Source: Lutimonas zeaxanthinifaciens (lineage in GTDB: Bacteria; Bacteroidota; Bacteroidia; Flavobacteriales; Flavobacteriaceae). Taken from it: a DNA stretch of 64,000 nt. Both the position numbers and the translations under genes were made by a program. Of the stretch, positions 47,270 through 64,000 are shown one piece after another. Position 1 is the stretch's first letter. Each line of letters begins with the position of its first letter. The stretch is taken from the NCBI RefSeq assembly GCF_030503675.1, contig NZ_CP129964.1, positions 806,001 to 870,000 of the forward strand, written 5' to 3'. The notes under the pieces were generated by a model. The model was not told where the DNA came from, did not search any database, and saw only the letters and a list, made by a program, of their open reading frames with translations.

Positions 47270-47342
47270 AATTGTTTAAATTTTTAGGTACTCGACCTAG
47301 GTTATTAATATAAAATAGTTCCACTTTCTCAAAAGTAGGGCG

Positions 47343-59728: not shown

Positions 59729-61468
59729 TTAGCCGTTCATTGACATTAAAAATTCTTCGTTATTATTTGTGAACTTAATTTTATCTTTTACGAACTCCAT
59801 GGCTTCGATAGGGTTCATATCAGCAAGATATTTTCTGAGCACCCAGATTCTTTGTCTGACCTTCTCTTCATGCAGAAGATCATCCCTACGGGTACTTGAT
59901 TTAACAAGATCAATCGCAGGGTAGATTCTTCTGTTTGAAATATTTCGATCCAATTGCAGTTCCATGTTACCCGTACCTTTAAATTCCTCAAAGATCACTT
60001 CATCCATTTTCGATCCTGTTTCCGTCAAAGCTGTTGCAATAATCGACAGTGACCCACCATTTTCAATATTTCGAGCTGCCCCAAAAAATCTTTTGGGTTT
60101 GTGAAGGGCGTTAGCGTCAATACCACCGGAAAGGATTTTTCCTGAAGCAGGTGCAACAGTATTGTAGGCCCTTGCCAGTCTTGTTATAGAGTCGAGAAGG
60201 ATAACTACGTCATGTCCACACTCAACTAATCTTTTGGCTTTTTCCAAAACTATATTTGCAACTCTTACGTGTTTTTCTGCCGATTCATCAAAAGTAGATG
60301 CAATAACTTCACCAGTTACATTGCGTTGCATATCAGTTACTTCCTCGGGACGTTCGTCAATTAAAAGTACAATCTGATAAACCTCGGGATGATTCGCAGA
60401 AATCGCATTGGCAATATCTTTTAATAAAATGGTCTTACCCGTTTTTGGTTGTGCAACCAGCATTCCGCGTTGTCCTTTTCCGATAGGTGAAAATAAATCA
60501 ATGATACGCGTTGATAAATTACTTCCCTTTTCAGCTAAATTAAATTTTTCCTCAGGAAAAAGAGGGGTTAAATGCTCAAATGAAACTCTGTCCCTTACAA
60601 TACTTGGATTCAAACCATTTATAAGACTTACGCGTATCAGTGGAAAATATTTTTCACCTTCTTTCGGAGGCCTGACTTTTCCTTTTACTGTATCTCCTGT
60701 TTTAAGTCCGAATAGCTTAATTTGCGATTGAGAAACATAGATATCATCCGGAGATGAAAGGTAATTGTAGTCCGAAGATCTCAAAAACCCATATCCATCC
60801 GGCATGATTTCCAACACACCTTCACTTTCTATGATTCCGTCAAATTCAAAATCGGGATCTCTGTATTTACCTGGTTTGTTGCTCTCATTACCACGTTGTT
60901 TGTGACTTTGATTACCACGATTATCTTTTCTCTGATCCTTCTGCTGATTTTTTTGATCTTTTTGATCCTTTTGCTGGGATGGATGTTGCTTCCGCTGATC
61001 CTTTTGCTGCGAATGATGCTGTTTTCTTTGATCTTTCTGCTGATTGCTTTGTTGATTACGATCAGTAGTTGCCGGTTTAGAATCTGTTTTTTGAACAGGA
61101 CCAGTTTCTTTTTTAGTTTGCTCTGAAACTTCAGGTTTTGGATGTTTTGCTGGTTCCACATCTCTCTTATCCACATCTTTTTTTGAAGGAACCTCGTTCT
61201 TTGTTGCGGTGGCAGGGGATGCCTTTTCAGGAGCCGCATCATTTTTTGAAATTCTTTTTCTCTTGGGTTTGGCGACTGGCGAAGTATTTTCCTTAAGTGG
61301 CGCAGTCTTTTCCTTCATCTGCTTTGGATTTGCGGCCTGCATATCAAGTATTTGATAAACCAAATCAAGTTTTTTAAGCTGACGAAATTTTGGAACATCA
61401 ATTTTTTGAGCAATTTCCTGCAACTCCAAAAGTTTCATCTCTTTGAGTTTGTCTATGTCAAACATCAT
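59729..61468 (-). CDS. rho: Transcription termination factor Rho with a long disordered insert
   Basis: Hexameric RNA helicase that ends transcription. The 579 residues have the N-terminal Rho_N domain ([29 protein letters not shown]). A low-complexity segment follows from about residue 50 to 205, rich in Lys, Gln, Asn and Pro, with repeated QQKDQRK units. Then come the cold-shock RNA-binding domain ([21 protein letters not shown]) and the ATPase (P-loop QPKTGKT near residue 340, Walker [17 protein letters not shown]). E. coli Rho (419 aa) lacks the insert. The start can be either of the first two Met codons. Confidence 0.95.
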
Positions 61469-61677: not shown

Positions 61678-62112
61678 ATGTTGCAAAGAATACAAACGGT
61701 GTACTTGTTGCTGGCGGCTCTTCTCTCTGGAGGCCTGACATTTTTTGTTCCTTTTTGGAGTGATGGCAATGAGATACCTTTAGGTCTTGCTGACATGTTA
61801 GATGGTGGGGACAATTTATTAAAGATTGTTCCGTTCCTCTTTATAGCGTCCGGAATTTTATCGTTAATGACGCTTTTTTTGTTTAAGAACAGATCCAGAC
61901 AAATCATTTACAATAGGCTAAATATTGTAATCAACTTTATATTGTTAGGAATTGTTGTATACTATCTGCTAATGTTACCTGGAGAAGCAGAGGTTTCAGA
62001 GAAGGGTATTGGTGTTGTCATACCTTTAATTGTAATTGTTTTGCTGGCTTTGGCCAATAAAGCTATTATTAAGGATGATAAACTTGTAAAATCTGTAGAT
62101 CGGTTGCGATAG
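61678..62112 (+). CDS. DUF4293 membrane protein
   Basis: A 144-aa protein with four membrane segments. The start MLQRIQTVYLLLAALLSGGLTFFVPFW is the conserved opening of the DUF4293 family of Bacteroidetes, followed by a short loop (GNEIPLGLADMLDGGD), FLFIASGILSLMTLFLFKNRSRQIIYNRLNIVIN, and two more helices; the end is basic (KLVKSVDRLR). It is divergent from rho and ends at a terminator at 62141-62175. Function unknown. Confidence 0.9.
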   Translation: MLQRIQTVYLLLAALLSGGLTFFVPFWSDGNEIPLGLADMLDGGDNLLKIVPFLFIASGILSLMTLFLFKNRSRQIIYNRLNIVINFILLGIVVYYLLMLPGEAEVSEKGIGVVIPLIVIVLLALANKAIIKDDKLVKSVDRLR

Positions 62113-62140
62113 TACTAATAACTTAGTTATAGTGTGTGTA

Positions 62141-62175
62141 AGCTGTCTGAACATTTATTCAGACAGCTTTTTTTG
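62141..62175 (+). terminator. Terminator after the DUF4293 gene
   Basis: Arms AGCTGTCTGA (62141-62150) and TCAGACAGCT (62159-62168) make a perfect 10-bp stem followed by a run of T. Confidence 0.9.
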
Positions 62176-62230
62176 GCTCAAATTTTCTCTAACGGTTTTC
62201 GGGTAATTTTGAAAATCCCAAGTTCCTCTA

Positions 62231-62261
62231 TTGTATGAAACGATGGTTGCCTATATATTTG
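62231..62261 (+). promoter_or_regulatory. Consensus promoter reading into the hairpin array
   Basis: TTG (62231-62233), 20 nt, TATATTTG (62254-62261). It follows the DUF4293 terminator and points into the repeat array, with the first unit about 70 nt downstream. There is no annotated gene after it until 63676. Confidence 0.6.
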
Positions 62262-62292: not shown

Positions 62293-62388
62293 ATGAAAAA
62301 AACAACCTTTGAAAAAAGGTATAAGGGGGGAAAGGAGAGAAGATCACTTTTCACTTTGAAGAAAAAAGAACTTCTCTCCTTAATTTAA
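62293..62388 (+). CDS. Possible 31-residue basic peptide overlapping the first repeat unit
   Basis: ATG at 62293 to TAA at 62388 encodes a Lys/Arg-rich peptide (MKKTTFEKRYKGGKERRSLF, then a LKKKELLSLI tail). It lies at the expected distance from the promoter at 62231-62261 and spans the first hairpin of the array. Against a real gene: the same DNA is the hairpin repeat, and other units carry different or interrupted frames. I rank it as possible only. Confidence 0.3.
   Translation: MKKTTFEKRYKGGKERRSLFTLKKKELLSLI
62332..62381 (+). repeat. Array unit 1
   Basis: Arms 62332-62342 and 62371-62381, 11 of 11 positions pair. The middle (28 nt) differs from the other units and lacks the TGAAGC segment. 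Confidence 0.75.
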
Positions 62389-62392
62389 CTCC

Positions 62393-62661
62393 GGGAATAA
62401 ATTGCTATGAATTCCAAAATTGACATTTTGAAAATTAAATTTCTCGAACTGAGAAGATATTAAGAATTCATTCTTATATCATATAGTTTGCATTAGATGT
62501 AAATAAAAAAAAAGGGGAGGAAGGAGAGAAGTGAAGCGCCATGATTCTTTCATTAAAAAAACAAATTGCTTCTCTCCTTACTATTTTTCAAAAAGTGGGA
62601 AAATTGCTAGACATTCCAAAATTGACATACTGACATCAAATTTCTCAAAGAAATGGGATAT
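62393..62661 (+). repeat. Homologous spacers 1 and 2 of the array
   Basis: The spacer at 62393-62460 and the spacer at 62597-62661 align along their length, with an identical 16-nt core ATTCCAAAATTGACAT at 62411-62426 and 62613-62628. This shows that units 1 and 2 were duplicated together with their spacers as a block of about 200 bp. Confidence 0.75.
62521..62579 (+). repeat. Array unit 2
   Basis: Arms 62521-62531 and 62569-62579, fully paired. TGAAGC follows the first arm as in units 3-5, but the rest of the middle differs. Confidence 0.8.
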
Positions 62662-62723
62662 AGGGTTTATGCCTTGTATAAAAAATACTCCTTGTTCAAA
62701 TAAGGAGAAGAAGAGAGGGGAGA

Positions 62724-62788
62724 AAGGAGAGAAGTGAAGCAAATTGTTTTCTAATACTAAGACTAAAAATAAAATAGCTTCTCTCCTT
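62724..62788 (+). repeat. Array unit 3
   Basis: Arms 62724-62734 and 62778-62788, fully paired. The purine tract begins at 62702. An upstream CTCCTT (62688-62693) can pair with AAGGAG at 62702-62707, giving a second small hairpin before the unit. Confidence 0.85.
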
Positions 62789-62904
62789 ACTATTTTTTCT
62801 CCACTTCAGGAAACAGACCATTTCTGTAAAGACAGATTCAGATTTTGAATCTGATCTGATAAAAAATACTCCTTATTCAATTAAGGAGAAGAAGAGAGGG
62901 GAGA

Positions 62905-62968
62905 GAGGAGAGAAGTGAAGCAAATTGTTTTCTAACACTAATGACAAATACAAATAGCTTCTCTCCTT
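62905..62968 (+). repeat. Array unit 4
   Basis: Arms 62905-62915 and 62958-62968, with one G-T pair at the base. It is almost identical to unit 3 on the 5' side. CTCCTT (62869-62874) and AAGGAG (62883-62888) again form the small upstream hairpin. Confidence 0.85.
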
Positions 62969-63080
62969 ACTATTTTAACATAGATATGATCTCATCAATT
63001 CGAAAAAAAATACTTCAAATTATTGAAGTTGAATAAAAACTCCGGAAAATTCGAATACCAGGAGTGAAAGAGAGGGGAGA

Positions 63081-63144
63081 AAGGAGAGAAGTGAAGCAAA
63101 TTGTTTTCTAAATACTAAGACTAAATAAAATAGCTTCTCTCCTT
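63081..63144 (+). repeat. Array unit 5
   Basis: Arms 63081-63091 and 63134-63144, fully paired. The middle matches unit 3 almost exactly, while the sequence ahead of the purine tract has diverged. Confidence 0.85.
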
Positions 63145-63245
63145 ACTATTTTACACAAAAAAAAATACTCAAATCTTGGGAACTTGAGTATTTTTTAAGA
63201 AGATAAACGAAATCTTCTTTTAAAAGGGGAAAAAGGAAAGGGAGT

Positions 63246-63295
63246 TAGGAGAGAAGCGAAACAAGTTTTCTAATAAACAAATAACCTCTCTCCTT
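63246..63295 (+). repeat. Array unit 6 (diverged, last)
   Basis: Arms 63246-63256 and 63285-63295 pair at 9 of 11 positions. The middle is shortened to 28 nt and the GTG of other units is GCG. Confidence 0.7.
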
Positions 63296-63300
63296 ACTAT

Positions 63301-63675
63301 AAATATTTCAACTATTGAAATTAAATTCAAAACTAACGAAGATGCAAGATAGAAAAAGAAAATGGAATTATCAAATAAAGTCTACAGATTAAGTAGGTGT
63401 TAAAATCATAAAAATCTTAATATCAAGTGATTATCTGTCTAATAAAAAGCATTTATATGGCTTAAACTATAGAAAAAAACATAATAGTAAAATTTTTATA
63501 TCTTTCGAGACGCCAAATTAGTGGTTTCTGGGTATAAACCTCATGGTTTTCAGGTAGCTTAAAAAATACCTGATTTCGCTATTGGTTTGTAACTCATTTG
63601 CCGATACATTTGGTGTATTGGCTTGTTATAGCTGATAAAAACATACATACAGAACAAATCTAAAAGTTTATTATT
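63301..63675. other. Upstream region of the last gene
   Basis: An AT-rich stretch without a coding frame. It contains an inverted repeat CAGGTA/TACCTG near 63551-63572 and the promoter at 63582-63612. Nothing else was recognised. Confidence 0.5.
63582..63612 (+). promoter_or_regulatory. Consensus promoter for the exported protein gene at the window end
   Basis: TTG (63582-63584), 20 nt, TACATTTG (63605-63612). A leader of about 55 nt precedes the ATG at 63676. The CAGGTA/TACCTG inverted repeat just upstream (63551-63572) could be a regulator site. Confidence 0.7.
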
Positions 63676-64000
63676 ATGAAAAATTTTACTATTGCAATTG
63701 CCGTATTGTTGGTTATGGCTTCTTTTACTACCAACTTAACTAACTCATCTTCAACGGTTTTGTCAGATTACGAAGGAACTTTATTAGAATCTGCTCCAAT
63801 CATGGAAAATAATGATGGAGAAGTTTCGGTAACATTTACAGTAGATCAGAATGTTATAGTTTCTTCTGCATTAATCGGTGCTTCCAATGAAATATTTTTA
63901 GTGGAAAATGGTGATTCGAACTCATCGAAAACCGTGACCCTTGATCTTCAACCAGTCGATGGTAAGGTTAAAACTGCCTTTAACAACATTTATGAAGACA
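63676..64000 (+). CDS. Exported protein of unknown function, 3' part outside the window
   Basis: ATG 63676 opens a frame running to the window edge (108 complete codons). The start MKNFTIAIAVLLVMASFTTN is a signal peptide. The mature part is acidic and rich in Ser, Asn and Val (for example NNDGEVSVTFTVDQNVIVSS), without cysteines so far, and looks like a beta-rich secreted protein. A consensus promoter stands upstream. No family was recognised. Confidence 0.75.
   Translation, partial: MKNFTIAIAVLLVMASFTTNLTNSSSTVLSDYEGTLLESAPIMENNDGEVSVTFTVDQNVIVSSALIGASNEIFLVENGDSNSSKTVTLDLQPVDGKVKTAFNNIYED

Follow-up and report, generated by a model that had tools for sequence, protein, structure and literature searches.

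A tandem array of six hairpins in the genome of Lutimonas zeaxanthinifaciens is proposed to encode a stand-alone, structured, multivalent non-coding RNA of ~1 kb that is placed under two-component control and titrates one partner, a proposal on which confidence is evenly divided. The proposal draws on compensatory changes in the hairpin stems, on first and last units that differ from the middle units in a position-specific manner, and on an operator that the array has in common with a neighboring two-component operon.

Layout of the array

The window analyzed here is a 64,000-nucleotide stretch (bases 806001–870000) of the complete 3.53 Mb genome. Model placement located all six hairpins that an earlier note on this DNA had described, in the same orientation, at 62317–63303 (+), with start-to-start distances of 189, 203, 181, 176, and 165, exactly the range of 165–203 nt that the note had given. 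The motifs TGAAGC, in units 2–5, and TTACTAT, in all units except the first, are likewise found where they had been reported. The description of the stem as kept in units 1–5 and mostly kept in unit 6 needs some correction: over 11 bp the stem is perfect in units 1, 2, 3, and 5, whereas unit 4 includes a single G-U pair (GAGGAGAGAAG) and mismatches occur in unit 6. Counting perfect 11-bp inverted repeats with loops of up to 80 gives five in a 1,059-base stretch (units 1, 2, 3, and 5 and the 3' hairpin at 63160). Dinucleotide shuffling, repeated 500 times, gave 0.086 on average and never more than 2, and the full 64-kb window has 14 when counted in this way.

The array is flanked on one side by a DUF4293 gene (61678–62112, Pfam PF14126), beyond which rho lies on the opposite strand (59729–61468), and on the other by a gene here called SEC, which is followed by genes for a response regulator (RR) and a histidine kinase (HK). 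A promoter directed into the array, also claimed earlier, is indeed present (Table 1). The terminator scan takes loops of 3–8 bases only, so that the array units, each of which the note had suggested might act with its T-rich tail as a processing or stop site, are outside its reach. The linker piece that follows unit 1 has a second copy at 62597–62617, and similar linker pieces are visible by eye in relatives. Elsewhere in the window, a 33-base tandem repeat at 60961–61042 belongs to the low-complexity N-terminal part of rho, and an S16-Flavobacteria ribosomal protein leader scores above the Rfam cut-off at 47275–47309 (−).

Table 1. Features of the array and its surroundings, in window coordinates.
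Feature	Position	Strand	Remark
Terminator-like hairpin after DUF4293 gene	62140–62169	+	Sets array apart from DUF4293 gene
Dyad operator CTAACGGTTTTCGGGTA...AAAATCCCAAG	62180–62227	+	Upstream of array; also at SEC operon
Array promoter CTATTG-N20-TATATTTG	62228–62261	+	
Unit 1, first-unit type, GGGGGGAAAGGAGAGAAG	62317–62389	+	
Linker piece GGAA..TTGCTATG..TTCC	62394–62415	+	Hairpin in predicted fold
Unit 2	62506–62587	+	
Small CTCC-loop-GGAG hairpin before unit 3	62688–62707	+	
Unit 3	62709–62796	+	
Small CTCC-loop-GGAG hairpin before unit 4	62869–62888	+	
Unit 4	62890–62976	+	
Unit 5	63066–63152	+	
Covarying 3' hairpin TACTC..GAGTA	63164–63192	+	Interval between last middle unit and last unit
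Unit 6, last-unit type	63231–63303	+	
SEC-RR-HK operator and promoter	63531–63612	+	Architecture as at array
SEC start	63676–64000	+	Gene ends 83 bases past window; RR and HK follow

RNA structure and unit types

The stems carry compensatory changes and many G-U pairs. In an alignment of 30 rows, 96.4% of cells are paired and two-sided changes occur at 5 of 13 pairs, a number as high being found in none of 500 shuffles. In a larger alignment (A3, 108 model matches, 103 of them distinct), which was fitted to the model and therefore leans toward it, 97.3% of the 1,327 cells in the distinct rows are standard pairs, compared with 55–81% in slid controls, and two-sided changes occur at 7 of 13 pairs, compared with a shuffled mean of 2.1 and again with none of 500 shuffles as high; three of the 108 rows are antisense readings of units and are kept in the pairing and column-identity counts. 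One stem pair is G-C in 60 of the distinct rows, G-U in 36, and A-U in 4, and the same G-U with the G kept is found in 6 of 30 rows from BLAST-fetched loci. The covarying 3' hairpin has 85 of 90 cells paired in 10 sequences and two-sided changes at 4 of 9 pairs, with stems aligned by eye and with locus L002, identical to L001 over the stem, omitted from the count. Unit hairpins have predicted energies of −14.6 to −21.8 kcal/mol.

The 5' purine strand GGGGAGAAAGGAGAG has column identities of 0.89–1.0, with G-U drift on the other arm. Its exact 15-nt core is found in 68 of the 96 rows from pattern-fetched loci, 5 of the 12 remaining rows, and 31 of the 51 units from BLAST-fetched loci. The pattern by which 27 loci were fetched prescribes the larger part of the purine strand and some of the 3' arm, so that this conservation and the asymmetry between strands are in part selected for. 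The earlier suggestion that selection acts on structure fits both the compensatory changes and the conservation in relatives described below. Reading frames, as the note had also stated, are not kept, and peptide coding was considered and rejected: the unit-1 frame, with its ATG at 62293, is shifted in L. saemankumensis as judged by eye, and the spacings differ by non-multiples of three. Inspection by eye of the arrays of relatives revealed no conserved reading frame after the unit motif.

Unit types were compared in ten arrays, leaving out one locus cut before its last unit. Middle units have an identity of 0.805 within genomes (39 pairs) versus 0.714 between genomes (457 pairs). First units have an identity of 0.615 to first units of other genomes versus 0.520 to the middle units of their own genome, and the corresponding values for last units are 0.747 and 0.612. 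First and last units are thus position-specific, which points to one long RNA, and these identities suggest that the array acts as a single RNA whose ends are fixed and whose middle is homogenized and variable. Alternatively, the transcript might be a precursor from which processing releases multiple copies of one small RNA, each pairing with mRNAs via the purine strand, as the near-identical units, the AU-rich linkers, and the conserved strand would allow. This is considered fairly unlikely, because the purine strand is one half of the 11-bp stem, the end units are position-specific, and a genome-wide scan for the core's complement gave nothing outside the array at 0–1 mismatch. At up to 2 mismatches, 6 of 12 core-complement matches lie outside the array, compared with 8 for a reversed control, so that antisense targets of the core are not enriched; the scan covered Watson-Crick matches to the complement of the 15-nt core only.

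Distribution and genomic position

BLAST of the array against 60 genomes, the source genome included, places all strong matches (E below 1e-10) within the genus, in 13 of 21 other same-genus genomes; in one genome (G017) the match extends over the promoter only, because masked letters follow. The earlier note had proposed looking for conservation and synteny in relatives, and both are found: the array is present in all seven other same-genus genomes of at least 90% completeness, and in all seven it lies beside rho/DUF4293 or SEC, the array contig ending inside the array in two of them. The eight same-genus genomes in which no match is better than E 0.001 are all 61–84% complete. An exact-pattern scan of GTDB 220 (one genome per species, 84,980 species, contigs of at least 3 kb) retrieved 27 stretches, from L. 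saemankumensis and L. halocynthiae, both of the same genus as the source, three Aureibaculum species, strain F08102, uncultured Flavobacteriaceae, and MAGs labeled just Flavobacteriia, Flavobacteriales, Bacteroidia, or Bacteroidetes. Across these ~85,000 prokaryote genomes all matches are thus from Flavobacteriaceae or from more broadly labeled MAGs.

A covariance model, R1, was built from 30 units, 29 of the 51 cut from BLAST-fetched loci and one other. It identifies strong arrays in 6 of 397 Flavobacteriaceae genomes, in a search with stricter filters that can lose weak matches; omitted from this number are genomes G087, G224, G268, and G417, with one weak match each (E 8e-5 to 8e-4), which were rejected by eye as chance or unrelated hairpins. 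The locus in G224 (L069), from another genus of the family, is a lone, terminator-like hairpin resembling a first unit (GGGGGGAAAGGAGAG..CTCTCCTTTTTTTT). In the source genome all 8 R1 matches fall inside the array and BLAST finds it in one place, so that neither method finds a second copy there; a separate tight pattern matched just two of the six units in this genome. Collections of plasmids, phage records, and viral contigs contain no match to the array.

These data bear on three readings that need no RNA-level titration. A neutral or mobile repeat would account for tandem copies that are more alike within than between genomes, but it can scarcely be credited given conservation in place in the seven same-genus genomes, the compensatory changes, and the lack of a second copy in the source genome. 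Similarly, REP/BIME elements or dispersed palindromes were rejected, since many copies would be expected and the array occupies one place in the genome. A protein-binding array at the DNA level, of centromere or operator type, had been among the options of the earlier note and would suit repeated inverted repeats in a gene-poor stretch. It is disfavored here, and very improbable, because there is one short array in the genome with no counterpart in the plasmid, phage, and viral-contig collections, because one stem position is G-U in 36 of the 103 distinct rows, and because a conserved promoter points into the array.

In Aureibaculum and relatives the array occupies a second genomic position that the earlier note did not include. 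In A. luteum (5 units) and the uncultured 2-853-G (4 units), it has a DUF4870-type gene upstream, and at its end it meets a miaE-type gene that runs toward it; the arrangement is the same by eye in A. marinum (2 units), and in F08102 (2 units) the convergent miaE side is alike and a DUF4870 ORF is not listed. Convergence was read from ORF lists in A. luteum, F08102, and 2-853-G and by eye in A. marinum, and the Pfam names DUF4870 and miaE were tested on the proteins of A. luteum only. Two genomes of the Aureibaculum genus, G356 and G162, still have rho, DUF4293, SEC, RR, and HK together. One decayed unit (loci L128 and L129) remains between DUF4293 and SEC in these two genomes, and the full array is elsewhere. 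That the array at the second locus ends against a convergent gene indicates a stand-alone RNA rather than a leader, and a cis-acting leader or riboswitch was rejected on this ground and because SEC has its own promoter in the window.

Operator, promoter, and the SEC-RR-HK operon

The array and SEC have in common an upstream element of about CTAACGGTTTTCGGGTA-N-AAAAATMCC-N-CTATTG-N20-TANATTTG, and this operator, common to the array and the two-component operon, is also absent from the earlier note. The promoter CTATTG-N19-21-TANATTTG has four exact matches in the 3.53-Mb genome, namely at the array, at SEC, at one site without the operator, and at one site with it, the last being the one site beyond the array and SEC where the exact scan finds both elements. 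Since the scan is exact and would miss the promoter of the L. halocynthiae array (TATGTTTG), the genome may contain additional sites. The promoter is present at the array in G162 and G356, where SEC has the operator but not CTATTG-N20-TANATTTG. The third operator-promoter of the source genome (L132, G000:C1:1982500-1986500, −) precedes four ORFs for small putatively secreted proteins, and a site with the same operator is found in three of five other genomes searched (G004, G013, G189); this locus is probably part of the same regulon.

SEC encodes a putatively secreted protein of 135 aa with a hydrophobic N-terminus resembling a signal peptide. Its predicted fold has seven strands after the signal-like helix (mean pLDDT 71.5), with no PDB match at E ≤ 0.001 and no assignment to a Pfam or NCBIfam family. 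The RR encoded downstream has a GerE/LuxR domain (NarL/LuxR type), and the HK that follows is a TPR histidine kinase. The 6 of 397 family genomes with SEC are precisely those that carry strong arrays, the two counts coming from two draws of 397 genomes whose handles agree wherever both lists contain them; naive counting gives a chance of 2e-13 for this co-occurrence, but the six genomes fall in three genera and are therefore not independent. The common element suggests that the RR binds the operator and would thereby place the array under LuxR/NarL-type control.

Proposed function and alternatives

By sequence, the array comprises a first unit at the 5' end, near-identical middle units in varying number, and a 3' module that differs from them. 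In the proposed mechanism, its RNA would be made when the HK senses an envelope-type signal and the RR occupies the operator. Each hairpin would offer the purine strand within a short helix flanked by unpaired bases, as a docking site for one molecule of a partner that acts in trans and is the same for all units, probably an RNA-binding protein. With several sites per RNA, the partner would be titrated and its target mRNAs released. CsrB and RsmZ titrate CsrA in this way, and the presence of many identical sites under signal control suggests titration of one partner here. By analogy, the best reading is that the array works like CsrB/RsmZ, yet is not a member of those families. Against this reading, searches of the source genome found neither CsrA nor RRM proteins, which would be the obvious partners, the GGA motifs are in stems, not in loops, SEC in the two Aureibaculum-genus genomes lacks the promoter, and the variation in unit number could also reflect neutral duplication of one functional unit. 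The earlier note had listed an RNA sponge among its options, and this option would fit the compensatory changes, the conservation, and the absence of an Rfam match at gathering score; its interpretation as a whole is partly supported.

The partner might instead be the ribosome, the array RNA serving as a decoy that holds 30S subunits whose anti-Shine-Dalgarno is free for lack of bS21. The unit sequence AGAAAGGAG is perfectly complementary to the nine terminal bases of 16S rRNA (CTCCTTTCT), and CACCTCCTTTCT is found at the 16S 3' end in the source genome, at what we take to be the mature end. Pairing with this tail is predicted at −13.0 to −13.6 kcal/mol for the consensus and for units 1, 2, and 4. 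In PMC9976891, bS21-less Flavobacterium ribosomes are described as favoring rpsU, on whose mRNA they initiate faster through its strong Shine-Dalgarno sequence (SD), and pairing below −13 kcal/mol as characteristic of rpsU. However, the top 0.1% of 21,328 18-mers of the window (both strands) pairs as strongly (−13.5), rpsU reaches −19.2 kcal/mol, and unit 6 reaches only −9.0. Moreover, the AAGGAG core is sealed in the stem, GGGG and GAGAAG, which are unpairable with the 16S tail, are about equally conserved, and exact AGAAAGGAG occurs in just two of the six units here, all of which makes a ribosome decoy distinctly unlikely.

A further alternative is a large structural RNA, an RNP scaffold like OLE, in which the units would serve assembly rather than titration. 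The 5' and 3' modules, which are distinct and kept in position, agree with a scaffold, as do the linker pieces kept by eye, but complete arrays have 2–7 units, a variation that a fixed scaffold is not expected to allow, and this alternative is fairly improbable. Returning to titration, a more specific version is put forward tentatively and with somewhat less than even confidence: the array may represent a new class, a two-component tandem-hairpin RNA whose conserved 15-nt purine strand docks a Bacteroidota partner, either a protein or, on ribosomes free of bS21, the 16S tail, and which would act as a Csr-like global titration switch without CsrA.

Comparison with known systems

The Rfam search that the earlier note had proposed, with the covariance models of Rfam 15, gives no family match over the array above the gathering cut-off, and at loose E-values the best sub-threshold match (E 0.076) is on the other strand. 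Among the matches listed in the open-licence literature on sponge or tandem-hairpin RNAs in Bacteroidetes, none describes the array by its title or the start of its abstract.

In CsrB and the Rsm RNAs, the GGA motifs are exposed in hairpin loops. In the array, on the other hand, AAGGAGAG forms the 5' stem arm, in which 97.3% of cells are paired, and the upstream GGGGAGA is outside the main stem. The likeness to CsrB/CsrC and RsmX/Y/Z under GacS/GacA includes a stand-alone RNA with many purine-rich, GGA-bearing hairpins. The number of sites is variable in both cases, and LuxR/NarL-type two-component control would extend to the array if the RR binds the operator that the array has in common with the RR-HK operon. 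PMC8311930 and PMC2375449 are among the papers on these RNAs. The array differs in that its motif is ~15 nt long and in a stem, and in that no Rfam match to those families was found. CsrA/RsmA (PF02599) has no match in the source genome, while the control search detects it in E. coli, B. subtilis, and T. maritima, three of the 14 named genomes. Membership in CsrB/Rsm was rejected because CsrA was not found in the source genome and because the GGA motif is in the stem.

OLE is not known to be tandem-repeated. It resembles the array in being a large structured RNA of few lineages; it differs in coming from Bacillota, and the array has no OLE match in Rfam. PMC12054373 describes OLE as a large structured non-coding RNA of few lineages, with bS21 proposed as a component.

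FopS and GibS are Bacteroides small RNAs associated with RbpB, having several paralogues and a connection to bile-salt (membrane) stress, and the FopS RNAs are short, are encoded individually at numerous loci, and pair with susC mRNAs, according to PMC11697453. They are similar to the array in coming from Bacteroidota. Unlike FopS, the array is composed of tandem units at one locus, and an RRM protein was not found in the source genome.

With the extended SD of rpsU in Flavobacteriales, as described in PMC9976891, the array has in common a GAAAGGAG-type complement of the 16S tail. The rpsU SD precedes a start codon, whereas the array motif is in a stem with no conserved frame seen by eye after it, and an rpsU-type SD element was rejected because the core is paired in the stem and a conserved reading frame is lacking by eye. 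The rpsU locus of the source genome (L133, G000:C1:2668190-2668345) has an 11-base extended SD (GAAAGGAGGTG), as the same paper reports for Flavobacteriales.

Taken together, the array is best read as a new family of RNA, one without a match in Rfam, whose mode of action resembles that of a known kind. Such a family would be of interest in Bacteroidota, from which few large regulatory RNAs are known. If the proposal is true, the array RNA would be a direct bait for the missing global RNA-binding regulator in culturable marine Flavobacteriaceae, and it would offer a test of whether titration of the Csr type has evolved again with another partner.
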